This document shows, piece by piece, positions 3-56,609 of a stretch of 64,000 bases of DNA. Each line of letters starts with the position of its first letter. Position 1 is the stretch's first letter. The position numbers and the translations under genes were made by a program. A model generated the notes under the pieces. That model did no database searches, was not told where the DNA came from, and saw nothing but the letters and a program-made list of their open reading frames with translations. This stretch comes from a bacterium (lineage in GTDB: Bacteria > Myxococcota > UBA727 > JAUIJE01). Location: contig JAUIJE010000004.1 in assembly GCA_030431455.1 (NCBI GenBank), forward strand, positions 310,001 to 374,000, given 5' to 3'.

Positions 3-725
3 CTGCGGGTGTTGCCCTACCAGTCGGTGGCCCACGGCAAGCCTTGGCTGCTCAAGCTGCACGGCACCACCGTGCGCCCCGGGCCCACGGCCGGGGAACA
101 GGCCGCGCCCCGGGGCGACGACATCGTGGTCACCCGCACCGACTATGCACAGTTTGATCTGCGCTGGCGGGCCCTGGCCAGCATCGTCGAGACCCTGTTG
201 GTGACCCGGCACATGTTGTTCGTGGGCTTTTCCCTCGCCGACCCCAACTTCCAGCGCATGGTCGACACCGTGAGCCGCGCGGTGCGCGCGGGCGAGACCG
301 GCCTGTCCAGTGACGAGCACACCGGCACCATCCTCGAGGTCAACCCCACCCCCTACCTGGCCCAGGTGTGGGGCGGGGAGTTTCATGTGGTGAGCATGGC
401 CACCGCCCGGGGAGACGACATCCTGCGCCAGGCCCGCCTCCTCGAGGTCTTTCTCGACCGGGTCGCGGCCGACGCCTACCCCCGGTCGGCCTACCTGCTG
501 GACCCCACCGCGGTGGGCCTGCTCGACGACGATGAGCACGCGCTGCAGCAACATTTGCTCACCTTCGTCGACGCCCTGGAGCGAGACCCCCGCTTCGCCG
601 GGGCCCTGGGCCGCCCCGACGTGGCCCGTCGGTCCCCTGCGCTGGCCCACATCCGTGAGTTGCTCGCCACCCTCGGCTGGCGCGGCGCCCGCAAACCCAC
701 CAAACCGGACCCCGAGGGAACCTGA
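3..725 (+). CDS. SIR2-like domain protein, 5' end outside the window
   Basis: The reading frame is already open at the window edge, so the N-terminus is missing. About 240 residues are visible. The motif KLHGT near the start and FVGFSLADPNF around residue 75 are typical of the SIR2-like (SIR2_2) fold, which binds NAD and in several bacterial proteins hydrolyses it. The C-terminal 90 residues look helical and match nothing I recognise. No membrane segment is visible. The stop codon lies three bases before the next gene, so the two are probably co-transcribed. Stand-alone SIR2-like proteins occur in anti-phage systems, but they also have other roles, and the missing N-terminus prevents a choice. 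Family call fairly sure; function unknown. Confidence 0.7.
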   Translation: MRVLPYQSVAHGKPWLLKLHGTTVRPGPTAGEQAAPRGDDIVVTRTDYAQFDLRWRALASIVETLLVTRHMLFVGFSLADPNFQRMVDTVSRAVRAGETGLSSDEHTGTILEVNPTPYLAQVWGGEFHVVSMATARGDDILRQARLLEVFLDRVAADAYPRSAYLLDPTAVGLLDDDEHALQQHLLTFVDALERDPRFAGALGRPDVARRSPALAHIRELLATLGWRGARKPTKPDPEGT

Positions 726-728
726 AGC

Positions 729-1562
729 ATGACCCTGCGCATCGGCGGCGTCCCCGAGCACTTCAATCTCCCGTTCCGCGTGGCCGCCCGCTGTGGCTAC
801 TGGACCGCCCGCGGGCTCGACGTCCACTGGGCCGAACAGTCCGGCGGCACCGGCCAGATGTTGGCCCGCCTGGAAAACGGCAGCCTCGACGCGGCCGCGA
901 TCCTCACCGAGGGCATCGTCACCGCCATCGCCCGGGGCCTGCCCGCCCGCATCGTGGCCCAGTACATCGACAGCCCGCTGCCCTGGGGGCTACACGTGGC
1001 CGCGTCGTCGCGGTTCGAGCGGCCCCGCCAGCTCGCCACCGCGCGGTTCGCGATGACCCGGCCGGGGTCGGGCTCGCACCTGATGGCCTACGTGCTCGCC
1101 GACCGGCTCGGGTTTTCGCTCCGGCCCGACCAGTTTGTCGAGGTCGGCACCCTCGATGGCGCCCGGCGCGCCTTGGCCCGCGGGCGCGCGGACGTGTTGA
1201 TGTGGGATCACTTCATGCTCGCGGGCTTGGTCCAAGCCGGCGAGCTGCGGCGCATCGGGGTGCAGCCCACCCCCTGGCCGAGCTTTGTCATCGCCGCGCG
1301 CCGGGGGGCGACGCTGTCCAGGGTCCGGCAGGCCGCGCGCGCCATCGCCGAACTGGCCGCCTCGCTCAAGGCCAGCGGCGAACTGGGCCGGCTCGCGGTG
1401 GACCTCTACGGGGTGTTGCCCGACCAGGTCGCGGCCTGGGAACGCGGGGTGCGCTGGACCGCGGGCCCGTTGCCGGCGGCCACCGTGGTCGACGTGCAAC
1501 GCCAGCTGCGCGACGTGGGCCTGCTGCCGCGGACCTACGCCCCGAGCCGGTTTTTGGCCTGA
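729..1562 (+). CDS. NMT1/SsuA-like solute-binding protein without signal peptide
   Basis: The 277-residue product resembles the periplasmic binding-protein fold of nitrate, sulfonate and thiamine-precursor transporters (NMT1/THI5-like). Typical pieces are an early segment describing a ligand approach loop (GYWTARGLDV), DAAAILTEG around residue 55 and a central TRPGSGSH loop. It starts directly with the first beta strand (MTLRIGGVPEHF), so there is no signal peptide and the protein should be cytosolic, unlike true ABC transporter receptors. No permease or ATPase gene is next to it. It follows the SIR2-like gene by three bases, suggesting translational coupling. It may be a cytosolic ligand sensor or an enzyme with this fold; the ligand cannot be deduced. 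Confidence 0.7.
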   Translation: MTLRIGGVPEHFNLPFRVAARCGYWTARGLDVHWAEQSGGTGQMLARLENGSLDAAAILTEGIVTAIARGLPARIVAQYIDSPLPWGLHVAASSRFERPRQLATARFAMTRPGSGSHLMAYVLADRLGFSLRPDQFVEVGTLDGARRALARGRADVLMWDHFMLAGLVQAGELRRIGVQPTPWPSFVIAARRGATLSRVRQAARAIAELAASLKASGELGRLAVDLYGVLPDQVAAWERGVRWTAGPLPAATVVDVQRQLRDVGLLPRTYAPSRFLA

Positions 1563-1698
1563 CGCGCGCGCCCCGGTCCGGGCCGGTGGCGGTCTGGGCC
1601 GCGGGCCCGGCGGGACCCCAATGGCACTGCTTTTCAGTCCGGTGACTCAGATGTGACCAGTGGCACCGGCGCCGCCCCCGCCCCGGGCGCGCTTGGGG

Positions 1699-1704
1699 TA
1701 AAAT
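1699..1704 (+). promoter_or_regulatory. Possible -10 box (TAAAAT)
   Basis: The hexamer TAAAAT lies 27 bases before the start codon of the Omp85-like gene in an otherwise very GC-rich stretch. No convincing -35 hexamer is seen at the right distance. Weak evidence, from sequence only. Confidence 0.3.
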
Positions 1705-1731
1705 CCCGAACCTCAACCCCGTTGATCGCCC

Positions 1732-3240
1732 ATGCACGCCGCTGTCGTCACCGCTCTGCTCAGCCCCTTCTTGGCCGCTGCCCCCGCCGAACCCGAGGCG
1801 GAGAGCGAGGGCAAAAAGTCGACCCACGCCGCGCCCCCGTCGGCGTCGCTGTCCGACCGCTTCACCTTCGACACCTGGGACGAGTGGGCCGCCTTGCGCA
1901 CCGAGGGCCCGCACCTCACCGTGGACCTGACCCCGGCGGTGGATCGGTTCTTTCCCGACGAGGACCACCCGCCCCCCCACCTGCCGGTGGAGGGCACCGA
2001 CGAAGGCGCGGCGGTGGCCGCGGGCACCGCCGAAGCCGACGACGGGCACCTCAGCTTCGTGGTGTTGCCCGACATTCGCTACAACCCCGACGAGGGGCTG
2101 GGCATCGGGGTGGCGATCCCCATCGTGTGGACCGAGCCCAACGTCAAGCCATACAAGTACAGCTTCGTGTTTCAGTTCGTGACCAGCACCAAGTTGGTGC
2201 AGGACCATGTGCTCATCTTCGACCTGGTGCGCATCCTCGGGTTGCCCATCCGCTGGTCGGGGCAGACCGGGTTTTACTCCTTCGCCGACGAGCCCTTCTG
2301 CGGCGTGGGGTCCACCGCGAGCTGCAGCGTCGACGACGCCGAGCAGTTCGCGGCCAACCAAGGCGCCACCGGGGACCAGGCCGACGAGATCGTCGAGCAG
2401 CGCTACATCATGCGGGTGGTGCGGCCGTATTTCTGGTCGATCCTGCGCCTCGAGCTTTTCGATTTTTTGGGCAAGTGGGAGGTGTTCGGCGGGCTGCGCA
2501 GCGAGGGGTACTTCCCGGGCTTTTTCGGCAATTTCCTCGAGGGGGAGCTGTGGGACGCGGGGCCCTACAAGGACTCGTTGTTCGCCGAATACGCCCCCGA
2601 TGGCCAGCCGGGGTTCGTCAACGTGCCCCAGGTCGGCCTGATGGTCGACTCGCGCGATTTCGAACCCTCCCCCCGCGCCGGCTATTGGATCGAGGCCTCC
2701 GCCCGGGGCGCGACCCCGCTGGCCTTGTCATCGTGGGCGTTTGCCGGTGGCAATGTCACGGGACGGCTGTACGTCCCCTTGCACCCCTCCAAGAACCTCA
2801 CCCTCGCCACCCGCGTGATCGCCGACGGCATCGTGGGCGACGCGCCGGTGCAAGAGCTCGCCCGCTTCGGGGGGTCGGTCGACTACCGCGGCTTCGGCGG
2901 GCGTTGGGTGGGGCGGGGCATGCGCCAGCAACGGTTCATCGGCAACATCAAGCTCGCCCACCAGACCGAGGTTCGCTGGGACGCGATCCGCTTCGACATC
3001 TCCGGCTTTTCCCTCGGGTTTGAGTTCGTGAGTTTTGTCGACGCGGGGCTCGTGCTCGCCGAGGGCGTCGACTACACCTTCCAGCACGGTCTCATCCGCC
3101 CGCTCAAACCACTGTTCACCGGCGGGGTCGGCCTGCGCTGGGTCATCAACCGCACCATCGTGGTGCGGGCGGACATGGGCTTTTCCCCCGAGGGGGGCCT
3201 GATGCCGCAGTTCTACTTCGACGGGCGCCACATCTATTAG
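1732..3240 (+). CDS. Omp85-like outer membrane surface antigen (D15 family)
   Basis: The 502-residue product begins with a short signal peptide (MHAAVVTALLSPFLAAAPA) followed by an acidic, poorly ordered stretch of about 100 residues. The rest is rich in alternating aromatic and polar residues, as expected for a beta barrel. Near residue 385 the segment VDYRGFGGRWVGRG resembles the conserved RGF/RG loop that plugs Omp85 barrels, and the protein ends in an aromatic residue (GRHIY), the usual signal for Bam-dependent insertion. No POTRA domains are visible, so it resembles the single-barrel patatin/D15-like or lipid-handling branch rather than BamA itself. Convergent with the channel gene downstream. 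Export and barrel are confident; transported substrate unknown. Confidence 0.75.
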   Translation: MHAAVVTALLSPFLAAAPAEPEAESEGKKSTHAAPPSASLSDRFTFDTWDEWAALRTEGPHLTVDLTPAVDRFFPDEDHPPPHLPVEGTDEGAAVAAGTAEADDGHLSFVVLPDIRYNPDEGLGIGVAIPIVWTEPNVKPYKYSFVFQFVTSTKLVQDHVLIFDLVRILGLPIRWSGQTGFYSFADEPFCGVGSTASCSVDDAEQFAANQGATGDQADEIVEQRYIMRVVRPYFWSILRLELFDFLGKWEVFGGLRSEGYFPGFFGNFLEGELWDAGPYKDSLFAEYAPDGQPGFVNVPQVGLMVDSRDFEPSPRAGYWIEASARGATPLALSSWAFAGGNVTGRLYVPLHPSKNLTLATRVIADGIVGDAPVQELARFGGSVDYRGFGGRWVGRGMRQQRFIGNIKLAHQTEVRWDAIRFDISGFSLGFEFVSFVDAGLVLAEGVDYTFQHGLIRPLKPLFTGGVGLRWVINRTIVVRADMGFSPEGGLMPQFYFDGRHIY

Positions 3241-3297
3241 CGCGGCCCGGACATCGACGAGAGGCGCTCGCCGGGCGTCCGCCGGTGCTGCCTTGGC

Positions 3298-4449
3298 CTA
3301 GGAATCGGTGCCTAGGTATTTGGCCACGAGGGCCTTCCAGTACCGTTCGTCGCCTTGGCGGCGGAGCAGGGCGGTGTTGAGCGGCTCGCGCAGAGGGCTC
3401 TTTTCTGGCAGGGCGATGCCGTAGCTTTGGGCGTCGAACACCGCTTCGAGCACCCGGACCTTGCCCTCTTGCTCCAGCCGCACATGGTACTGCAACAGCG
3501 GGCGGTCGTAGACAAAGGCGTCGATGCCGCCGTCGGCCACCGCGGCCAGCCCTTCGCTCACGCTCGCGAAGTGGGCCGGGAGCATGCCCTTTTCGGTGAG
3601 GTACCGCGCGCTGGAGCTGCCTTCGATGGTGCCGACCTTGGCCTTGGGCAGGTCGGCGGGGCCGGTGATGCCCGACTCGAGCTTGTTCACCGTGAGCGAC
3701 GAGGCGATGCCGGCGGTGAAGAACGAGATCAAGATGATGGCCGCGAACATCCACACCAGCCCCAGCAGCCGGCCGGGGAGGGTGCGGGGGGCGGCGTCGC
3801 CGTACCCGACGGTGGTCATGGTCACCGCCGACCACCAAAAGCCGTCCGCGATGCCCGACGCACCGGGGCGGAACTGCTCGGGGTTGTGTTTGCGTTCGAA
3901 CACCCAGGCCAACACGCCGACCACCAACAGCAACACCACAAGTCCGCCGAGGTATCCGCCGAGCTTGGGGGACAGGATGCTCGTCCACGATGAGCTCGCG
4001 GGGCGTGCGCTCACCGCGATGCCGAGGCCGGTGAAGTAGTAGGGATGCGAAAAGTCGAACTGGCTTTCCCGTTGGGGGGTCAGGGTGATGGCCGCGATGC
4101 CCACGTCGACGTCGCCCTTGGTGGTCGCGTCGAGCAGGCCCTTGAGATCGAACTCCCGAAACGTGAAGTCGCGGTCCAGGTCTTTGGCGAGGTCACGCCA
4201 GAGGTCGATGCTGATGCCCGACCAGCTGCCGTCGGCGCCCTTGATGGAGAAGGGCGGGGCCACCTTGGTCCCGACCACCAGCGGCCCGTCGGCCGGGGCG
4301 GGCGCGGACCCTTCGGTGTTGGCGGCGGTGGGCGCCGGGGCCGGCTTGGCCTTGGCTTTGCGCTTTTTGGCCGCGGCGGGGGCGGCGGCCACGAGCACGA
4401 CCAAGGCGGCCGCGGCGAGGTGTCGGGCGGTCAGCAAGGGCAATGTCAT
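3298..4449 (-). CDS. GluR0-like ligand-gated potassium channel
   Basis: The 383-residue protein has the layout of prokaryotic ionotropic glutamate receptors. A signal sequence (about 1-27) and a Lys/Pro/Ala linker are followed by a first ligand-binding lobe (56-148). Within it TLTPQRESQFDFS (123-134) carries the arginine (R127) that binds the alpha-carboxylate of amino acids in this family. A membrane helix (163-184), a pore loop with the potassium filter TVGYGD (213-218) and a second helix (228-250) come next, then the second ligand-binding lobe. The lobes should be periplasmic. It is the last gene of a minus-strand group, 12 bases after the S46 peptidase. The ligand is inferred to be an amino acid; potassium selectivity follows from the filter. 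Confidence 0.88.
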   Translation of the reverse strand: MTLPLLTARHLAAAALVVLVAAAPAAAKKRKAKAKPAPAPTAANTEGSAPAPADGPLVVGTKVAPPFSIKGADGSWSGISIDLWRDLAKDLDRDFTFREFDLKGLLDATTKGDVDVGIAAITLTPQRESQFDFSHPYYFTGLGIAVSARPASSSWTSILSPKLGGYLGGLVVLLLVVGVLAWVFERKHNPEQFRPGASGIADGFWWSAVTMTTVGYGDAAPRTLPGRLLGLVWMFAAIILISFFTAGIASSLTVNKLESGITGPADLPKAKVGTIEGSSSARYLTEKGMLPAHFASVSEGLAAVADGGIDAFVYDRPLLQYHVRLEQEGKVRVLEAVFDAQSYGIALPEKSPLREPLNTALLRRQGDERYWKALVAKYLGTDS

Positions 4450-4461
4450 GGGATCCTTTCG

Positions 4462-6591
4462 TCAGCCGGGGGTGTCGTCGGACAACAGCTCGGTCACGAG
4501 GTGGTCGGCGCGGTAGACGCGCTCCAGCATGTGCAGGATACCGGCCACGTGCACGCTCACCGCGCGCTCCTGGTCGCTGCGGTAGACGAACCGGTTACCG
4601 AGTTGGTGGATGTTGCCGTCGAAGATGAGACCCACCACGCGGCCCGCGGGGTTGATCACGGGGCTGCCGGAGTTGCCGCCGATGATGTCGTTGGTGGACA
4701 CGAAGTTGTAGGGCACGCTGAAGTCCACCCGGGGCATGGCCTCGACGAACGACGGGGGCAGCTCATAGGGAGGCTTGCCCTGGGCGCGTTTGTGGCGCCG
4801 GTAGATGTCGCCGACCTGGGTGCGCCAGTCGATGTGGGTGTTGCCCTCGTCGTAGCCTTTGACCACCCCCACCGCGAGGCGCAGGGTGAACGTCGCGTCG
4901 GGGTAGGTGCTCTGGCCGTGCACCGCCGACCAGGCCTCGGCCACCCGGCCGGCGTAGACCCGGAGCGCGGCTTCGTATTCGTCCTCGAACGCGGCGCGCA
5001 GTTTGCGCGCGGTCCCGTCGTAGCTCTTCACAAATGTGATCAGGGGGTCACGCGAGGCGTTCACCGCGGCCGCGCCCCCTTGGTAGAGCGCCCGCCGGGC
5101 CTCGACGTCGAACAGCTTGGTCCCCTTGACCAACGCTTGGGCCCGGGCCGCCGGGGTCTGGCCGGCCAACGCCGCGCGCACGGTGGGATCGGTGGGGCCC
5201 AGCTGCTGCACCATCGCCTCCAGTCCCATTTGGATCTTGAGCGCCTCGAGGTCGGGGTCGAGGGGGGCGGCGCTGAACAGCTCGAGCTCCAGGCTCTTGC
5301 GGTTGCTGTCGCGGTATTCGCGCAGGCGGTCACCGTCGGGCTTTTTGTCCTCGACGGGCAGGCGCACGAGGTGTCGCGCCACCAACGCGAGCTGACCCTG
5401 GGGCGAGAAGCGGCCTTCGGTGACCGCGTAGGCGGTGTACTGGGGGCGAATGGCGCGGGTGGCCTCGGCGATCTTGGGCCAGGCTTGGCCGAGCCGGGTC
5501 TGGTCCGGTTCGGGCATGGCCTTGACCTGCTGTTGCAGGGTCTCGTGTTTTTGGCGGGCTTGGCCCATCAGCGACGGGTCGCGCAACGCCTGCAGGTAGC
5601 CAGCGATGGCCTTTTTGGCGTTGGACGCGCGCAGCCAATCCGCCAATGCCACTTGGCGTTGGCGGGGGCCTCGGGCAATAAAGTCCGCGAACCGGCTCTG
5701 GCTGGTGGTGAACCCCTCGAGGTAGAACGGGTAGATCACGTCCCGCAGCAGCTCGAGCTCGGCCGGGGTGGTGAGCCGCCCGGTGGACCCGGGGTGACCG
5801 GACACGAACACCACGTCGCCCTCGCGGGCGCCCTTTTTGTCGAACGGCAAGTAAAACGCGCGGCTGTCGAGCGGCTTTTCCTTCTCGTAGACCCGAAAGA
5901 AGGTCACGTCGAGGCTCATGCGGGGGAAGCTGAAGTTGTCCCGTTCGCCCCCGAAGTGTTTGGCCGCGTTTTCGGGCGCCCACACCAAGCGCACGTCGGT
6001 GTACTTGCGGTAGGTGTACAGGTGGTACGCGCCGCCCGAGTACAACGTGACGACGTCACACCGGAAGCGGTCCCCGCCCGCTTGGTTCTTCTGTTGCGCG
6101 CAGGTCTTCTCGATCGCGGCCATCTCCGCCTTGATCGCGTCGTTCTTTTGCGCGTCGGTGGCCTGCGGTCCCACACCATCGCGCGCGGCCTTCACCCGGC
6201 TCGTGACGTCGGTGATCGCCACCGTCTGGTTCAGCTCCAGGTCGGGACAGCGCCGCTCCTGCCCGCGGGCGGCGGCCAAAAATCCATCGCGGAGGAGGTT
6301 CTCCTCGCCCATCGAGAGCTTCTGAATGCAGTCCCGGCCCACGTGCTGGTTGGTCATCACCAGCCCGTCCGGAGACACGAAGCTCGCCGACCCCCCATTG
6401 TTGAACCGCACCGAACCGAGCCGCATCTTGTCCAACAACGCCTGGTCGACGGCCACGCCGTACTTGGCCTTCACCGTGTCGGCGGGGAACATGTTGTAGG
6501 GCCACATGCCCTCATCCGCTCCGGCTCCCGGCGCCGCGGTGAGCGCAGAGACACACAACAACAGGGCATAGCCACGGGCACACAACATCAC
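4462..6591 (-). CDS. S46 family dipeptidyl peptidase (DPP7-like)
   Basis: This 709-residue secreted serine peptidase removes dipeptides from the N-terminus of oligopeptides in the periplasm. A signal peptide (about 1-25) precedes the S46 signature DEGMWPYNMF. The catalytic triad is visible: His in TNQHVG near residue 82, Asp in GERDNFSFPR near 220, and Ser in GGNSGSPV near 640. Eighteen residues after the catalytic Ser lies Gly (FDGN). In Porphyromonas DPP7 a glycine at that spacing goes with hydrophobic P1 preference, while DPP11 has arginine and prefers acidic P1. Full length for the family. The gene sits between the M14 carboxypeptidase (7 bases upstream) and the channel, so the three look like one operon. 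Confidence 0.92.
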   Translation of the reverse strand: MMLCARGYALLLCVSALTAAPGAGADEGMWPYNMFPADTVKAKYGVAVDQALLDKMRLGSVRFNNGGSASFVSPDGLVMTNQHVGRDCIQKLSMGEENLLRDGFLAAARGQERRCPDLELNQTVAITDVTSRVKAARDGVGPQATDAQKNDAIKAEMAAIEKTCAQQKNQAGGDRFRCDVVTLYSGGAYHLYTYRKYTDVRLVWAPENAAKHFGGERDNFSFPRMSLDVTFFRVYEKEKPLDSRAFYLPFDKKGAREGDVVFVSGHPGSTGRLTTPAELELLRDVIYPFYLEGFTTSQSRFADFIARGPRQRQVALADWLRASNAKKAIAGYLQALRDPSLMGQARQKHETLQQQVKAMPEPDQTRLGQAWPKIAEATRAIRPQYTAYAVTEGRFSPQGQLALVARHLVRLPVEDKKPDGDRLREYRDSNRKSLELELFSAAPLDPDLEALKIQMGLEAMVQQLGPTDPTVRAALAGQTPAARAQALVKGTKLFDVEARRALYQGGAAAVNASRDPLITFVKSYDGTARKLRAAFEDEYEAALRVYAGRVAEAWSAVHGQSTYPDATFTLRLAVGVVKGYDEGNTHIDWRTQVGDIYRRHKRAQGKPPYELPPSFVEAMPRVDFSVPYNFVSTNDIIGGNSGSPVINPAGRVVGLIFDGNIHQLGNRFVYRSDQERAVSVHVAGILHMLERVYRADHLVTELLSDDTPG

Positions 6592-47470: not shown

Positions 47471-48898
47471 CTAGTCCCAGATGCTGTTCCAAGTATCGGC
47501 GATGCCGCTGCCGACGTCGGACACGATGTTGCCCACGTTGACGTTGAGGTCGACGGTGACCCGGCCCCCGAGCCCCACCGCCGCGCCCAGGTCGGCCCGC
47601 GCGCGGAGCTTGCCGCCGGAGTAGCTGAGCTCGGCCGACGCCGCGCCGCCGAGGCCGGCCTGGCCGCGGCCGGTGACGCTGGCGCCGCCGTAACGGTTTT
47701 CGTAGCCGACGCTGCCGCGCACCTCGGCGCCGACGAAGCCCTCGGCCCCGACCCGCGCGCCCACCTCGCCCTGGGCGGGATTGAACCGCACCCCGGCCCC
47801 GACGTCGGCCCGGGCCCCGATGTGGGCCTCCCCCTCGACGAAGCCGCCGCCGGCCACCGAGCTGGTGGACCCGAGCTGGGCCCGCCCGCTGGCCCCGACG
47901 AGGTCGGCTTGTCCAGTGGCATTGATGCCGACGTTGACGTTGCCGGCCTTGAAGTCGACGGTGGCCGCGCCGTCGACGCTGCCCTGGGCGGCGAGGGCGT
48001 GGTACTCGCCCCCCGCGCCGGTCTCATCGGCGGTGTGCCGGGTGTCGTTGCTGGTCACGAGCCCGTGATAGTCGTTGTCCCCCGCGATGTGCACGCCGCC
48101 GAGGGAGCCGCCCACGCCGACGTTGTCGGACAGCGAGCGGCCTTCGTTGGCGGTGGTCTCACTGCTGGTGCGGTTCAGTTCGCGGCCGGTGGTGTTGTTG
48201 CGCGCGGTGCCGTTGCGGGTGGTGGTGGTCGACTGACCGTCGTTGACGCTGTCGGTCCGGCTGTTGACGGTGTGGTTGGGATAGCGCGTCTGCTGGAAGG
48301 TGGTGTTGCGCGACCGGGAGTTGGAGCCTCCAATGACATTGCGGCTGCCGGTTTGGCCATCGGACGCCTTGGTGTGCAGCGAGCCCTGGGGCGGCCCTTG
48401 CTCCGGGGTCGTCGAGGTCCCGTTCGACGGCTGGTCCGTCGACGACGGGGTGCGGTAGCCGCCGCCGGCGCGGAGGTTGTTGACCTCATTGGCGAGGCCC
48501 GGGTCGCCCTGCGGCCCGGCGGTGCCGTTGCTGCCTTGCGGCGAGACGCTGACCTGCGGCTGGGAGGTGTTGTTGCGGTCGAACGAGTCGGACTGGCCTT
48601 GCACCCCGGAGGTGTTCTGGGTGCCGTTGGTGGCTTGGTTGCCCTGGCTCTGTTGCGTGCCCTGGGTCCCGGCGGTCGACGACGGGATGTTGATCTCTTG
48701 CCCCGGGAAAATCAGGTCGGGGTTTTTGATCTGGGGGTTCGCCTTGATGACGTCCTGCAGGCTGACATTGTTGTCCTTGGCGATGCCGGACAGGGTGTCA
48801 CCCTTCTTCACCGTGTGGGTTTGTCCCGCGTTGTTCGCACTCGGGCCAACGCCGGTGCTGCGGGTTGGGGTCGTGTTGGTGGCGCCGCCGACACTCAT
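47471..48898 (-). CDS. LysM protein without signal peptide, with Asn/Ser/Thr-rich and beta-rich regions
   Basis: The 475-residue product has one LysM domain (residues about 27-72: KKGDTLSGIAK, then PQIKNPDLIFPGQEINIP), which binds peptidoglycan-like glycans. Residues 75-270 are a disordered region rich in Asn, Ser, Thr and Gly. Residues about 270-460 form Gly/Ala-rich alternating strands (VDFKAGNVNVGINATGQA, GAEGFVGAEVRGSVGY) and the protein ends in an aspartate-capped helix DTWNSIWD. There is no signal peptide or membrane segment; GGGAGG supports the ATG at 48898. LysM without signal peptide occurs in phage-tail-like and secretion-injected proteins. The role is unknown. Confidence 0.75.
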   Translation of the reverse strand: MSVGGATNTTPTRSTGVGPSANNAGQTHTVKKGDTLSGIAKDNNVSLQDVIKANPQIKNPDLIFPGQEINIPSSTAGTQGTQQSQGNQATNGTQNTSGVQGQSDSFDRNNTSQPQVSVSPQGSNGTAGPQGDPGLANEVNNLRAGGGYRTPSSTDQPSNGTSTTPEQGPPQGSLHTKASDGQTGSRNVIGGSNSRSRNTTFQQTRYPNHTVNSRTDSVNDGQSTTTTRNGTARNNTTGRELNRTSSETTANEGRSLSDNVGVGGSLGGVHIAGDNDYHGLVTSNDTRHTADETGAGGEYHALAAQGSVDGAATVDFKAGNVNVGINATGQADLVGASGRAQLGSTSSVAGGGFVEGEAHIGARADVGAGVRFNPAQGEVGARVGAEGFVGAEVRGSVGYENRYGGASVTGRGQAGLGGAASAELSYSGGKLRARADLGAAVGLGGRVTVDLNVNVGNIVSDVGSGIADTWNSIWD

Positions 48899-48946
48899 GA
48901 AAAGCCTCCCAGGGATGTGATGCAAGACGCGCTTGCCGCGAAGGAA

Positions 48947-50284: not shown

Positions 50285-52717
50285 TCAGCGGCGGGTCAGC
50301 GGCGCCTTCTTGAGGGTGGCCCCGTCGAGGTACAGCAACGCCGGCGACGCGCCGCCCACAGACGGGAAGCGCTCGATGCTGTCGAAGGTCACCATCAACG
50401 GGCCCGTGCGGTAGCCCGGGTCGTTGAGGTCGGTGAGGTAGAGGTCGCTGTCGACCAGGACCGCGCCTTCGTCGTACGTGCGCTCGAACACGAGGAGCGT
50501 GCCGTCGGGCGAGAACTGCGGCTCGGTGCCTTGGCCGAGGAAGATGCGCGCGCCGTCGGCGACCCGGTAGAGGTACAGGCCGGTCTTGAGCCCTTGGTAC
50601 ACCACGTGGGAGCCGTCGGGGCTGAGCACGGGGGCGAAGAAACGATCGTCTTCTGCGTCGGACGACACCTGCACAATGTCATTGTCGATGCGCAGGTACA
50701 CGTCGTGATGCTGTTGGAACACCCGGAGGGCAGGATGGGCGTCGTAGGGGCCGACCATCTGGCCCTTGTCGTCGACGAGAACGGTGGGGGCGTCCGCGTA
50801 CGGGGTCCGGCGCAGCCGGTGAAAGATGTGCGCGCCGTCCGGGTGCCAGCCCGCGCCGACGCCGACCGCGTCGCGGGCGACCAGCGGGGTGACGTCGCCA
50901 CGGTCGATGTCCAGCACCGACAGGGCGCCGTACCCCGGCTCCGCGAACAGCACCTGGTCGCCCAGGGGCGACAGCACCGGCGCGATCATGTCGCGCAGGA
51001 TCACGTCCTCGGCTTGTCCCAGTTCGAAGGTGGGTTCGCCCTCCTCGGCGTACAGCAGCGCGGGGTCGTGCGGCTCGACCACCACCCGGTCGTGGGGGTG
51101 GCAGGTGTCGGGGCTGACCCCGGGCACGTGGGCCTGGGCGGCTGGGGCCCCCAGCGCGCAGAGAAGCAGCAGGCCGGTGAGCCCGGTGACGTTGTCGCGT
51201 CGTCGACGACGGGGCAAGAACAGGAGCCCGGCGAGCGCGAACAGGGCGAGTCCGGTGCCGCTTCCCGTGCTGCTGCACCCGCCGCTGAGCGGGGCCGACT
51301 GGGGGTCGTCGTCGTCGGCGCTGGCGATGCGGACCCGGGGTTGTTCGCCGGATTCGGGTTCGGGCTCGAGGGAGACGGTGGGCTCGGGCTCGGGCTGGGC
51401 TTCGGGCTCGACGGTCACGGAGGGCTCCGGTTCGGGTTGGGGCTCGGGGCTGGGCTCGGGCTGGGGCTCGGGGCTGGGTTCGGGTTGGGGCTCGGGGCTG
51501 GGTTCCGGCTCGGGCTGGGGCTCGGGGCTCGGTTCGGGCTCGGGGCCGCTCTCGACGGGGGCGAGGCCCACCGAGCACCACACGGTGGCGTCGGTCTCGA
51601 CGGTGCAGGTGCGGGTCGCGGTGGTGTACCCGGCGAGGGCGACCTCGAGGGTGTGATCGCCGGCGTCGAGTTCAAATGTAAATGCACCGGTGCCCGCATC
51701 GGAGCTGGCGGTGTCGCCGGTGTCGGTCACGGTCACCGTCGCGCCGGCGAGGCGGACATCGGTGCTGCCGTCGGCTTGGATTTCGTACACCACCCCGGTG
51801 GCGGTGCCGGTGGTGGAGACGGTCGCGGGGAGCAGGCCGATCGAACACCAGCTGTCACCGCCGCTGGTGATGGTGCAGCCGCGGGTGGCGGTGTCGTAGC
51901 CCGGCGCGCTGGCGGACAATGTGTAGTCACCGGGGGCGAGGTCGATGCTGAACACCGCGTTGTCCGCGGACACCCCATAGGTGTCGCCGGTGTCGACGAC
52001 GGTGACGGTGGCCTGGTCGAGGCGGATGTCGGTGTTGGCGGTGCCTTGTCCTTGGTCTTCGAACACCACCCCCAGGGCGGTGCCGTCGGTGTTGCCGCCC
52101 CCGCCGTTGCCGGGATCGACGCTGACGCCGAGGTGCTGGCCCAGCGCGATGAGGTGCGCCTCGGCCGCGCGTTGCCGTTCGTCGGGGTCGGAAAGATACT
52201 GGATGTCCACGTTGCAGTTGTTCATGAAGCCGAGCTCGGTGAGCGTGGCCGGCATCGCGGTGGCGGTGAGCACGGTGAAGTTGGCGGTCTTGCCGCCCCG
52301 GTTGGTCAGGGGCCAGGTCGCGATCATCTGCGCCTGGATTTTGTTGCGCAGGTCGAAGCTGTTGTTGCTGCCGTTGGTGGCGCAAAACGTCTCGATGCCG
52401 GTGGCCACCACCCCGGCGGAGTTGGCGTGGATGCTCATGAACCGCGCCGCGCCGTTGCTGTTGGCGAACGAGGCCCGCCCGGAAAGCGACACGAACGAGT
52501 CGTCGGTGCGGGTCATGACCACGGAGAACCCGTTGTTCTGCAGGAGTGTGCGCAGGCGCAGCCCGGTGTCGAGGTTGACGTCCTCTTCTTCATACCCGCA
52601 GCCCACCGCGCCAGGGTCTGACCCGCCGTGTCCGGGGTCGACGGCGATGACGGTCTGGGCCGACGCGCCGGTCGCGAACAGAAAAGCGAGGGCAGCAAGT
52701 AGGTGCTTGTACGACAT
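50285..52717 (-). CDS. N-acetylmuramoyl-L-alanine amidase with internal MYXO-CTERM signal, fused in frame to a beta-propeller
   Basis: Residues 1-20 are a signal peptide. Residues 22-200 are a zinc amidase (Amidase_3) that cuts the peptide stem from peptidoglycan: DPGHGGSDPGA (His30), acidic YEEEDVN, SIHAN and LTELGF. Two Ig/carboxypeptidase-regulatory-like modules follow, each with a Cys pair, and a Pro-Glu repeat linker. Near residue 478 a MYXO-CTERM-like signal appears: GGCSSTGSGTGLALF, hydrophobic LAGLLFLP, then five Arg. Such signals normally end the protein. Here the frame continues with a signal-peptide-like segment (GLTGLLLLCALGAPAAQA) and a 280-residue WD40/PD40-like propeller (VLSPDGSHVVYQG, QFSPDGTLLVFER). 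The start follows GGAGGAGTCC. Confidence 0.86.
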   Translation of the reverse strand: MSYKHLLAALAFLFATGASAQTVIAVDPGHGGSDPGAVGCGYEEEDVNLDTGLRLRTLLQNNGFSVVMTRTDDSFVSLSGRASFANSNGAARFMSIHANSAGVVATGIETFCATNGSNNSFDLRNKIQAQMIATWPLTNRGGKTANFTVLTATAMPATLTELGFMNNCNVDIQYLSDPDERQRAAEAHLIALGQHLGVSVDPGNGGGGNTDGTALGVVFEDQGQGTANTDIRLDQATVTVVDTGDTYGVSADNAVFSIDLAPGDYTLSASAPGYDTATRGCTITSGGDSWCSIGLLPATVSTTGTATGVVYEIQADGSTDVRLAGATVTVTDTGDTASSDAGTGAFTFELDAGDHTLEVALAGYTTATRTCTVETDATVWCSVGLAPVESGPEPEPSPEPQPEPEPSPEPQPEPSPEPQPEPSPEPQPEPEPSVTVEPEAQPEPEPTVSLEPEPESGEQPRVRIASADDDDPQSAPLSGGCSSTGSGTGLALFALAGLLFLPRRRRRDNVTGLTGLLLLCALGAPAAQAHVPGVSPDTCHPHDRVVVEPHDPALLYAEEGEPTFELGQAEDVILRDMIAPVLSPLGDQVLFAEPGYGALSVLDIDRGDVTPLVARDAVGVGAGWHPDGAHIFHRLRRTPYADAPTVLVDDKGQMVGPYDAHPALRVFQQHHDVYLRIDNDIVQVSSDAEDDRFFAPVLSPDGSHVVYQGLKTGLYLYRVADGARIFLGQGTEPQFSPDGTLLVFERTYDEGAVLVDSDLYLTDLNDPGYRTGPLMVTFDSIERFPSVGGASPALLYLDGATLKKAPLTRR

Positions 52718-52848
52718 GTAAGGACTCCTCCACAACGACGACAACGTAGGGCGCAGACGGCGCCTCAGCATCGGCTGAACGTCGGACTCGGATTTTGTGT
52801 GCGCTGGGCCCCGTTTGGCGACGAAACCCTTCTGATACGAACCTGAAA

Positions 52849-55143
52849 GTGACCGACGTAAGCCAGCTCTTGCAGCAGCGGCGGGTGATCGATGATCGCC
52901 TGTTCGCAGAACACTCCGAGTTTTGCGCCGTGATGTTCACCGACATTGTCGGGTCCACGGCGTTTTTTGAGGCCAAAGGCGACATCGAGGGGTTGGCGCT
53001 GGTGCACCGGCACAACGAGATGTTGTTTCCCCTCGTCGAGCAGCACCGCGGCGAGATCATCAAAACCATCGGCGACGCGATCATGGCCACGTTCGCGTTG
53101 CCCGAGCACGCGGTGGCGTGTGCGGTGGCGATGCAGCGACGTTTGGCCGCGGCCAGCGATGAGCCCGATCCGATCAGAATTCGCATCGGGGTCCATGCCG
53201 GTCGGGTTTTGCGCGACGACGGAGACGTGTTTGGCGACACCGTGAACACCGCGGCCCGGGTCGAGTCGGCGGCGGGGGCGGGGGAAGTGCTGATTTCACA
53301 GGCGGTGTTTGATCGGCTGCCGAGCCCCAAGCCGCGGGTGGTCCGGCGGGACACCGTGCCGTTCAAGGGCAAAGCCGAACCCATGGACGTGATGGCCATC
53401 GACACCGGCGCGGTGCGGCCGCTGACCGAGGGGCGTTTGCTCACCCTCGAGCTCCGGCAGGGGCCCGACGGCCTGCGCGTGGGGTGGCGCGATGTCGACG
53501 AGGCCACGGTGAGCGCGCGCCTGTCCAGCGGGCTGACCCCGGACAAGGCGCAATCGATCATCGGCGGGCTCGAGGCGTTGTTCGCCACCAGCAACGGGCC
53601 GAGCGCCTACCGCACGGAGTTGCTGCACCGGGGCAAACGCTTGGCCGAGGCCGCGCTCACCGTCGACGGGGTGGCCCGGCTCAAAGCCGAGCCGCCCCAG
53701 TTTGTGTTGCTCGACCTCGACGAGGAATGGATCGCGGAGCCTTGGGAACTGATGGTGCCGGACAAAGCCCCCCTCGGGCTGTCATGTGGGGTGGGGCGGG
53801 TGGTGAGCGTCGAAGGCGCGGTGCGCCAAGACCCGGTGGCCCCCAGCGGCCGGGCGGTGGTCATCGCCGACCCCGACGGCACGCTCGAACACGCCGCGGC
53901 CGAAGGCCGGGTCATCGCCGGGCTGCTCCAAGAGCGCGGGGTGGACGAGGTCGAGCTCCTCACCGGCGCGGTCGATGCAGATACATTGGTGTCGCGCACC
54001 CGGGGCGCGGCCTTTGTCCACTACGCCGGGCACGCGCAGGTCACCGAGCAGGGCACTGAGCTGGTGTTGGCGGGGGGGAGCCTCACCGTGCGGGACTGGG
54101 CCGACCGGTTGGCGGGGGCGGTGCCCGCGTTTGTGTTTGTGAACGCGTGCCGCTCCTCGGGGGGGCAGGGCTACCGCGACCAGTCGCGCGGTACCGCACA
54201 CGGCGCCGGGGCGTTGCTCGCGGCGGGGGTGCGCCATCACCTCGCCCCCGCCTTCGCGGTCCCCGACGACGACGCGACCTTCTTCGCCGCCCGGGTGTAC
54301 GAGGATTTGCTCGACGGCCAGCCGGTGGGCGAAGCGGTGCGCGCGGCCCGCCAAGCCGCCGCCGATCAGCAGCACGCGTCGTTGGCGTTCGCGGCCTACG
54401 TGCTGTACGGCGACCCCCGCACCGCGCTGTTCGCGGCGCGGCCCGCGCAGAAGCGGGCGTCGTTGCGGGCGGTGAGCGGCGAGCAGGTGCGGTTGCCGCG
54501 CACCGGGACCGCCCATGTGTTGCCCGCGCCAAAGCCGTTCCCGGTGTTTGCCGTGGCCGCGGGGGCGTTGGTCCTCGTCGCGCTCACCCTCGTGGCCGTG
54601 CTGGTGTCGGGCGAGGGCCCGGCGCCGTCCCCCGCAGACCCACCCCCGGTCGTCGGGGGGGCGCCGGTCACGCCGCCGTCTCCGCCGGTGACCGCGAAGG
54701 TGGCGCACACCGGGGATGTGCGGGTGTCGGTGTTGCCGTTCAAGACCGTGGGCGAGGCGGACCAGGCGGCCGCGCTCGGCGAGGGGCTCGCGGAGGCGTT
54801 GACCACCGGGCTCGCGGGCGCGCCGGGCATGGCGCTCATCGAGCGCGGCCAGATCGACGTGGACCTCGGAGAGATCGAGTTTTCCCAGAGCAAGTACGTC
54901 GACCCCGCGACGAGGGCCCAGCTCGGCAAAATCAAGGGCGCCGAGATCGCAGTACTCGGTGCGGTGCAGCGCGCGGGCGCGCAGCTGCGCGTCACCGCGC
55001 GTTTTGTCGACGTGGAGACCGGGAAAATCATCGAGCAGGTGGTGACCACGGGCGAGGCCGCGGATGTGTTCGGGCTGCAGGACGCGGTCACCGCGCGGGT
55101 CAAAGAGAAGCTCGGCCCGGTGGTGCAGGGAGCCCGGCCATGA
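52849..55143 (+). CDS. Adenylate cyclase - CHAT protease - membrane helix - CsgG/FlgO-like sensor
   Basis: The 764-residue protein has four parts (GTG numbering). Residues 22-190 are a class III cyclase: metal Asp in FTDIVGST (D32) and IKTIGDA (D76), base-selecting Lys (K72) and Asp (D126) as in adenylate cyclases, and NTAAR (N133, R137) for the transition state. Residues 280-530 are a CHAT caspase-like protease with His in VHYAGHA (H395) and Cys in VNACRSS (C434). Residues 566-587 are a membrane helix, then a Pro-rich linker. Residues 622-758 resemble the CsgG/FlgO-like domain of envelope proteins (VSVLPFKTVG, RVTARFVDVETG). Cyclase and protease face the cytoplasm. It overlaps the next gene (ATGA). 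A TTG at 52795 is the alternative start. Confidence 0.88.
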   Translation: MTDVSQLLQQRRVIDDRLFAEHSEFCAVMFTDIVGSTAFFEAKGDIEGLALVHRHNEMLFPLVEQHRGEIIKTIGDAIMATFALPEHAVACAVAMQRRLAAASDEPDPIRIRIGVHAGRVLRDDGDVFGDTVNTAARVESAAGAGEVLISQAVFDRLPSPKPRVVRRDTVPFKGKAEPMDVMAIDTGAVRPLTEGRLLTLELRQGPDGLRVGWRDVDEATVSARLSSGLTPDKAQSIIGGLEALFATSNGPSAYRTELLHRGKRLAEAALTVDGVARLKAEPPQFVLLDLDEEWIAEPWELMVPDKAPLGLSCGVGRVVSVEGAVRQDPVAPSGRAVVIADPDGTLEHAAAEGRVIAGLLQERGVDEVELLTGAVDADTLVSRTRGAAFVHYAGHAQVTEQGTELVLAGGSLTVRDWADRLAGAVPAFVFVNACRSSGGQGYRDQSRGTAHGAGALLAAGVRHHLAPAFAVPDDDATFFAARVYEDLLDGQPVGEAVRAARQAAADQQHASLAFAAYVLYGDPRTALFAARPAQKRASLRAVSGEQVRLPRTGTAHVLPAPKPFPVFAVAAGALVLVALTLVAVLVSGEGPAPSPADPPPVVGGAPVTPPSPPVTAKVAHTGDVRVSVLPFKTVGEADQAAALGEGLAEALTTGLAGAPGMALIERGQIDVDLGEIEFSQSKYVDPATRAQLGKIKGAEIAVLGAVQRAGAQLRVTARFVDVETGKIIEQVVTTGEAADVFGLQDAVTARVKEKLGPVVQGARP

Positions 55144-56609
55144 CCCGGGCGGCGGTGGTGTTGGCGCTGGCGATGGGGGCGGCGGGCCCGGTACACGCCG
55201 CGTCGCAGGCCGCGCCGTATGCTGTCATGCCATTCAAAAACATTGGCGGCGGGGAAGAGCTGGCTTGGCTCTCGTTGGGCATGGCCGAGACCATGGTCTC
55301 GGACTTGAAGAAAGAGAAGTTCGCGGTGGTCGAGCGCGACCAAGTGGGGGCGGCGCTGGCCGAGCTGAAGCTGCAACAAAGCGTGAACGTCGATGCATCG
55401 ACCGCGGCGAAGGTGGGCAAGATCGTCGGGGCCCGCACGGTGGTGATCGGCGGCTACCAGACCGCGGGCCAGCAGCTGCGCATCACCGCGCGCTTCGTCG
55501 ACGTCCAGACCGGCGTGGTCCGGCAGACGGCGAAGGCGACCGGAAAGGTGGGCGCGGTGTTCGCGCTGCAAGACCGCATCGTGTCCCAGCTCACCGGCAG
55601 AAAGGTCCAGGTCCGGCGGCACCGGGCCACGCCGAAACGCGCCAAGAAGGGCGCGTCGGCCGCGCCGAAAAAGGTCGCGGTCAGCGCTGAGACCATGAAG
55701 CCGATGCTCGATGCCTACCGCTTGTACAGCGAGAGCTTGGGCCAGTCCGACCCCATGGCCCGGCGGGTGGCGCTGTTGCAGTCGCTGCAAGCGGACCCGG
55801 GATTTGCTTACGCGCTCGACGAGCTGGACGCGCTTGAGCTGCGTTTGGCCGCGTACAAAAAGCAGGCCCTGCGCGAGGTGTTGGCCCGCATCGACGCCGC
55901 CATCGCCATCTACCGGGACGCGACGAGGCCCGACGAGGACCGGGCCAAGGCGGCGATGGACGCGATGCGTGACCTTCAGGTCAACCGCCAGTACACCGCG
56001 CTGCTCGAGGTGTGCCAGGAGATCGTCGAGCTCCAGCTGCCCCCGTACTACACCATGAACATCAGTGAATATGCATTGCACGCGTGCTTCACCGCCCACC
56101 AGCAGCTGGTGCACACCGATGAGGCGATGCGGGTCGGCGAGCAGTTCCTCAAGACCTACCCCGGCAGCCAGCTCCACCAGAGCGTCACCCTGGGGGTTGA
56201 GCAGTTGATCAAGCAGCAGCGCGAACGCAAGAAGCTCTACGCGGCCTACGACGAGGAGTTGGCGGAGCTCGAAGAACGCGCCGCGGGGTTTCGCGCCCGC
56301 GACGAACGCCGGCCGAACCCCGAGCGCCTCGCGGGCCAGCTGGTCCAGGTCGAGAGCCAACGCTGCAGCCTGCTCGCGCGGCACTACCACGTCGAAGAGG
56401 CCGAACGTCACTGCAAAGAGTTCATCGACGCCCACGCGGGCGAAGAGCGCGCGGACCCTTGGGTGTACCAGGCCCGGGTCCAGCTGTTCTTTCTCTACCG
56501 GAACCTCGGCCGCTTCGATGACGCCCGGCGCATCGGAGCCGACCTCATCGTGCACCACGGGGACAAAGGCGCGGACGTCGCCGACACCGCCCGCTGGTTC
56601 CCCCGGTAG
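55140..56609 (+). CDS. Secreted CsgG/FlgO-like protein with helical repeats
   Basis: The 489-residue product starts with a signal peptide (MTRAAVVLALAMGAAG, cleavage after HAA). Residues about 25-150 are the same CsgG/FlgO-like domain as the C-terminus of the preceding gene product: YAVMPFKNIGGGEEL, VVERDQVGAALAELKLQQ and LRITARFVDVQTGVV. A basic linker (HRATPKRAKKGAS) and about 300 residues of TPR-like helices follow. It is translationally coupled to the cyclase-CHAT gene. The shared domain suggests that the two proteins interact or sense the same ligand in the periplasm. No catalytic motif is seen. Confidence 0.82.
   Translation: MTRAAVVLALAMGAAGPVHAASQAAPYAVMPFKNIGGGEELAWLSLGMAETMVSDLKKEKFAVVERDQVGAALAELKLQQSVNVDASTAAKVGKIVGARTVVIGGYQTAGQQLRITARFVDVQTGVVRQTAKATGKVGAVFALQDRIVSQLTGRKVQVRRHRATPKRAKKGASAAPKKVAVSAETMKPMLDAYRLYSESLGQSDPMARRVALLQSLQADPGFAYALDELDALELRLAAYKKQALREVLARIDAAIAIYRDATRPDEDRAKAAMDAMRDLQVNRQYTALLEVCQEIVELQLPPYYTMNISEYALHACFTAHQQLVHTDEAMRVGEQFLKTYPGSQLHQSVTLGVEQLIKQQRERKKLYAAYDEELAELEERAAGFRARDERRPNPERLAGQLVQVESQRCSLLARHYHVEEAERHCKEFIDAHAGEERADPWVYQARVQLFFLYRNLGRFDDARRIGADLIVHHGDKGADVADTARWFPR

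Follow-up and report, generated by a model that had tools for sequence, protein, structure and literature searches.

Eukaryotic viruses commonly rely on polyproteins, which bacteria seldom use. The fused cytochrome b/c1 precursor of Bradyrhizobium (FbcH) is a single open reading frame (ORF) from which cutting at an internal signal peptide yields two proteins; unlike the gene described here, it has no sorting tag, a single cut and a membrane cytochrome half. In our literature searches, nothing relevant emerged on bacterial polyproteins that contain internal signals.

In the MYXO-CTERM/myxosortase system, exported proteins combine an N-terminal signal peptide with a Cys motif, hydrophobic helix and Arg cluster (PMC11980579). 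These features are shared by a protein encoded in the window (the whole 64,000-nucleotide stretch of myxococcotal DNA that was analysed), and the genome of origin also has a myxosortase-family protease and a type II secretin. In contrast to that system, the signal in the window lies in mid-protein, with a second signal peptide and a further exported domain downstream of it. Internal MYXO-CTERM motifs were described as rare by Guo, Haft and Wall (2025), who, in the portions of their paper available to us, name one protein, MXAN_5598, an adhesin with an internal MYXO-CTERM, an outer-membrane barrel and OmpA, term it atypical and perhaps a gene fusion, and say nothing about a further signal peptide after an internal motif (PMC11980579). 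The same protein is among those listed in the available part of a vesicle proteomics study (PMC4158809). As far as described in these portions, MXAN_5598 resembles our gene in that an internal MYXO-CTERM links two exported parts, but its domains are unrelated to those in the window. For TraA/TraB of Myxococcus xanthus, the accessible text places the partner gene directly after that of the MYXO-CTERM protein, as here, but as two overlapping ORFs rather than one frame (PMC11980579). What is new in the present analysis is the second signal, its interchangeable type, the existence of split relatives and the breadth of occurrence.

Organization of the reading frame

An uninterrupted minus-strand frame runs from an ATG at 52717 to a stop at 50285-50287 and encodes a precursor of 810 amino acids (aa), with the following parts.

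50285..52717, minus strand: single ORF, predicted precursor of 810 aa plus stop (translation)
52658..52717, minus strand: N-terminal signal peptide, aa 1-20, ending ASA before Q (translation; inferred from sequence)
52145..52648, minus strand: Amidase_3 zinc amidase domain, aa 24-191 (domain match and alignment of homologues)
51821..52084, minus strand: CarboxypepD_reg/PEGA-like repeat 1, aa 212-299 (domain match; limits by eye)
51557..51811, minus strand: CarboxypepD_reg/PEGA-like repeat 2, aa 303-387 (domain match; limits by eye)
51308..51550, minus strand: Pro/Glu-rich linker, aa 390-470 (translation; model mostly pLDDT <50)
51197..51283, minus strand: internal MYXO-CTERM signal, aa 479-507, with Cys481, hydrophobic helix and RRRRR (profile scans)
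51197..51211, minus strand: five-Arg cluster, aa 503-507, last part of the sorting signal and putative n-region of signal peptide 2 (translation; dual role inferred)
51131..51196, minus strand: second signal peptide, aa 508-529, predicted cleavage between AQA and HVPG (translation, signal test, homologues)
50288..51130, minus strand: TolB-like beta-propeller, aa 530-810 (structure model and fold matches)

The sequence-only reading had the frame open from the amidase through a MYXO-CTERM into a second signal ending AQA and a propeller, and translation and profile scans bear this out. Third-position GC is 0.86-0.92 in all five ORF parts, junction included, so one coding frame continues through the junction.

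The Amidase_3 match (E 2.3e-45) is accompanied by invariance, among 10 aligned homologues, of H30, E44, H97 and E161, which we take to be the conserved metal/catalytic residues of the family; the domain match and these residues together identify this half as a predicted N-acetylmuramoyl-L-alanine amidase. The linker is acidic and of PEP-type composition. Near the C terminus a domain scan gave a weak PD40 match, the propeller was modelled at pLDDT 84.9, and its top fold matches include TolB structures. Identity with TolB of the Tol-Pal system was rejected (TIGR02800, 20.5 bits against a cut-off of 343), the propeller being TolB-like in fold but not TolB. The full-length model has pLDDT <50 at aa 413-552 and is uninformative at the junction.

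At the junction, TIGR03901 (MYXO-CTERM) scored 19.7 bits in the whole-protein scan against a cut-off of 20, and 26.0 bits, above that cut-off, in the genome scan; TIGR03382 on the whole protein gave 15.6 bits against 15.85. Directly after the motif comes DNVTGLTGLLLLCALGAPAAQA followed by HVPG, a textbook-type signal peptide with the five Arg as n-region. The protein begins with a signal peptide, read from the translation, as MYXO-CTERM substrates do, but 303 aa lie downstream of the motif, which is not C-terminal; we regard it as a probable internal variant of the sorting-substrate signal. The uninterrupted ORF with its internal signal peptide also has the layout expected of a polyprotein cut by signal peptidase. 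A Tat signal was considered and rejected by eye, the context RRRRRDNVTG being unlike a Tat motif.

Two flanking regions were annotated by eye. On the plus strand, divergently at 52795-56609, a cyclase-like ORF with a CsgG/TolB-like end is followed by a similar second ORF; on the minus strand, 47471-48925 encodes a LysM-like N terminus and then a long Asn/Thr/Gly-rich repetitive region.

Fused and split homologues

Initial searches (the propeller against 58 relatives and a propeller profile against 195 phylum genomes, 12 of which matched at E <= 1e-12) recovered 10 fused proteins from nine genomes, window included. Of the 80 loci retained from a further scan, L225-L239 were translated, L224 was the G052 locus and 64 were left out; the scan added L225 and L227. 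The resulting 12 fused homologues in 11 genomes (the window, G010, G052, G035, G040, G186, G187, two in G188, G189, L225 and L227) all have the same order of parts. L224 and L226 apparently repeat the G052 and G188 loci, and L229 and L230 are interrupted by contig ends.

In all 12, the Cys-helix-Arg signal leads into a second hydrophobic segment that bears a cleavage motif. This motif is AxA-like, of the signal peptidase I type, in seven, and a lipobox, of the signal peptidase II type, in five (G186, G187, one G188 copy, G189 and L227; the lipoboxes are LTAC, LAGC, LSAC, TSAC and VAGC). On the amidase tree, which has several moderately supported forks, each main group contains the two types, and about three switches can be counted by eye. 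Such alternation is best explained if the second segment is a working, cleaved signal peptide, since an uncut anchor gives no reason to switch back and forth between cleavage sites of different kinds. The sequence between the domains is poorly conserved, but Cys481 and Arg504 do not vary among the 10 members aligned. One locus, L226 (UBA1203), holds tandem fused copies at 594-3488 and 3995-6481, one with a lipobox as its second signal and the other with a signal-peptidase-I type.

Separate amidase and propeller genes, which the sequence-only reading had proposed looking for, were found in two rumen metagenome-assembled genomes (MAGs; L228 and L233), the split falling precisely where the Arg cluster gives way to the second signal. 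The amidase there ends with LRRRREV or IRRRQRR before the stop, and the propeller ATG lies <=15 nt downstream; the propeller gene has a GGAG-type ribosome site and encodes a signal peptide of its own. Two proteins that are exported independently are thus divided at this very boundary. The homologue comparison thereby supports the proposal of two exported proteins in one frame whose signals share an Arg cluster.

The suggested origin by loss of a stop codon calls for one correction: a recent loss in the window strain was rejected since the fusion is common to several families of the phylum, so that the stop loss is old rather than recent. The split pair is nested inside the fused group on the amidase tree with moderate support, and either re-splitting or several separate fusions are possible.

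Outside Myxococcota, a TolB-like propeller gene immediately precedes that of the amidase, as a conserved pair, in Sumerlaeota (L231, L232, L236 and L237) and in one other MAG (L239), and in a Planctomycetota MAG (L234) the amidase is joined directly to the propeller without either signal. These arrangements in other phyla indicate an old partnership between amidase and propeller. Within the amidase-propeller set, we saw the sorting junction in Myxococcota-type members only: fusion without the sorting signal, which had been named as evidence against the reading, occurs once, in L234, whereas all 12 Myxococcota-type fused members have both signals.

Internal sorting signals in Myxococcota

A sample of 13 genomes searched with TIGR03901 gave 186 MYXO-CTERM matches, 177 terminal and nine internal, and all nine internal motifs run directly into a signal-like segment. 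The genome of the window accounts for 26 matches, with 24 terminal (<=31 aa following) and two internal: the amidase-propeller gene and a 1946-aa RHS-repeat ORF (L075:3906-9746, G000:C16), in which a short N-terminal part, MYXO-CTERM and a signal ending AQA precede the repeats. Terminal matches numbered 88 of 89 in the first six further genomes and 65 of 71 in the second six, with <=59 aa following in the latter; internal motifs have >=220 aa downstream. The signal-segment test was home-made, lax and set after some sequences had been seen, and 285 of 2380 and 237 of 6590 background segments (3.6-12%) pass it, so nine of nine exceeds chance; three terminal matches with longer tails (28, 47 and 59 aa) fail. 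G185, G096, G089, G017 and G008 were picked for the second six with junction matches already known there, so that the rate of 9/186 is biased and the 9/9 is conditional on being internal; of the two, it is the 9/9 that can be relied on. This sample missed weaker internal motifs in G057 and G128.

A junction profile built from ten junctions and run on the 195 phylum genomes matched 86 at E <= 1e-4, many of the rows listed being ordinary terminal motifs. Nine of 13 inspected loci were junctions and four were terminal, all 21 selected full-length matches were junctions, and OmpA-type barrel loci contributed 10 junctions in six genomes. Together with the motif sample, these make at least 56 distinct junctions, spread over no fewer than 38 of the 195 genomes, to which L225 and L227 are added. 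The pairs joined are unrelated: Ig-type adhesin and OmpA barrel (L086, L103), matrixin and matrixin (L094), PKD and CXXCH (L162), Ig and CARDB (L327, L342), and a Cys-rich part (by eye) before a TIG lipoprotein (L203). A 2534-aa ORF in G185:C105 has two in-frame junctions without a stop (L342:1593-1670 and L204:1559-1693), the second with a lipobox, and three predicted products.

In G057, a 2698-aa ORF flanked by FtsZ- and FtsA-like genes (identified by motif and inspection), the position described for MXAN_5598, is an apparent orthologue of that protein, and its second signal would be cut between ARPAVA and Q. Genomes G057, G128, G150, G151, G153 and G161 each have 8-11 OmpA-type barrel matches, some behind an adhesin and an internal MYXO-CTERM and others in shorter ORFs.

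Terminal motifs were also examined for a following gene. Among the 150 terminal matches with enough flank (of 153 outside the genome of the window), 29 have a signal-peptide-like ORF starting -20 to +80 nt from the stop, some with overlaps of 4 nt, and 14 of these have a crude ribosome-site match; the test is itself crude and false positives are likely. Fusion of such tight gene pairs through a single stop loss would cost little, because both signals would continue to work.

Proposed processing and alternative explanations

We consider it likely that the gene product is a polyprotein on which a myxosortase and signal peptidase I (II in the lipobox homologues) each make one cut; both cuts, the topology, the lipidation and the final locations are what we infer from the arrangement of signals. 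The first signal peptide would export the amidase half, and the MYXO-CTERM helix would stop transfer, leaving the Arg cluster in the cytoplasm, where it would be reused as the n-region of the second signal peptide and restart export, now of the propeller half. A myxosortase (a CPBP-family intramembrane protease, probably the L137 protein) would cut behind the MYXO-CTERM cysteine; the amidase would thereby acquire a lipid anchor and be destined for the surface via type II secretion. Signal peptidase I would cut after AQA and free a periplasmic propeller; in the lipobox homologues, signal peptidase II would instead leave the propeller as a lipoprotein.

Candidate machinery is present. Among four PF02517 proteases in the genome, that at L137 scores 110 bits with Mrt_core NF040914 (cut-off, 100), falls short of the cut-offs for the named subtypes MrtX, MrtC, MrtP and MrtZ, and contains EExxxR and HxxxN, which the available portions of the myxosortase study give as catalytic motifs (PMC11980579). 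The type II secretin GspD scores 480 bits against a cut-off of 351.

Some observations count against a polyprotein. The whole-protein TIGR03901 score falls just under its cut-off; the single chain of L234, without signals, indicates that amidase and propeller can work joined; and different final compartments for the halves would fit oddly with the amidase-propeller partnership in other phyla. The last two lend themselves to an uncut protein, in which the two hydrophobic segments would form a membrane hairpin with a cytoplasmic Arg loop, holding both domains in the periplasm. The tight loop, three residues (RRR) in L069, is compatible with such a two-pass anchor, as are the direct fusion in L234 and the neighbouring genes of other phyla. 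However, the AxA or lipobox that ends the second segment in 12 of 12 fused members is needless for a mere anchor, the halves are exported separately in the split relatives, and the Cys is invariant; we consider the hairpin unlikely.

It is very unlikely that only the second signal is cut, with the amidase held in the inner membrane by an uncut MYXO-CTERM helix and the long-tailed MYXO-CTERM no substrate for myxosortase. The low score of the window motif (19.7-26 bits) and the internal motifs of G057 and G128 that escaped TIGR03901 would suit this explanation. Against it, only ∼22 aa of tail would be left after the signal peptidase cut, compared with up to 59 aa in ordinary terminal tails, and a tail is tolerated: in the accessible portions of that work, MrtX removed a FLAG tag positioned after the TraA motif (PMC11980579).

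Separate translation from an internal start near the Arg cluster, giving a propeller with its own signal and only a minor read-through form, is highly improbable. A TTG does lie two codons upstream of the Arg cluster in the window, and an in-frame ATG, GTG or TTG occurs at 21 of 42 junctions, within the stretch reaching from three codons ahead of the Arg cluster up to 14 aa short of the cut; the other 21 have no such codon, so separate translation cannot account for the whole set. By eye, there is no GGAG-type site before the window's TTG, whereas one is present in the split genes of L228 and L233. That a sequencing or assembly error joined two genes, a concern of the sequence-only reading given some colour by the split forms in L228 and L233, is scarcely credible, as 12 homologues in 11 genomes, fused in frame without a stop, exclude such an error at the junction and coding bias is continuous through it.

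Implications for the myxococcotal envelope

Beyond the amidase-propeller gene, we lean towards the view that Myxococcota possess a “cut, anchor and restart” module of general use, which would amount to a polyprotein strategy widespread in bacteria. An Arg cluster shared by a MYXO-CTERM signal and the signal peptide after it, an arrangement present in many unrelated protein pairs, would allow one translation product to become two, and sometimes three, separately addressed envelope proteins, with two different proteases acting on either side of one short cytoplasmic loop. If this is true, it would account for odd giant envelope ORFs in Myxococcota, whose annotation would be corrected to two or three proteins per ORF. 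It would also provide a natural myxosortase substrate with a reporter built in on the far side, and the junction would be a natural linker for producing equal amounts of two surface proteins.
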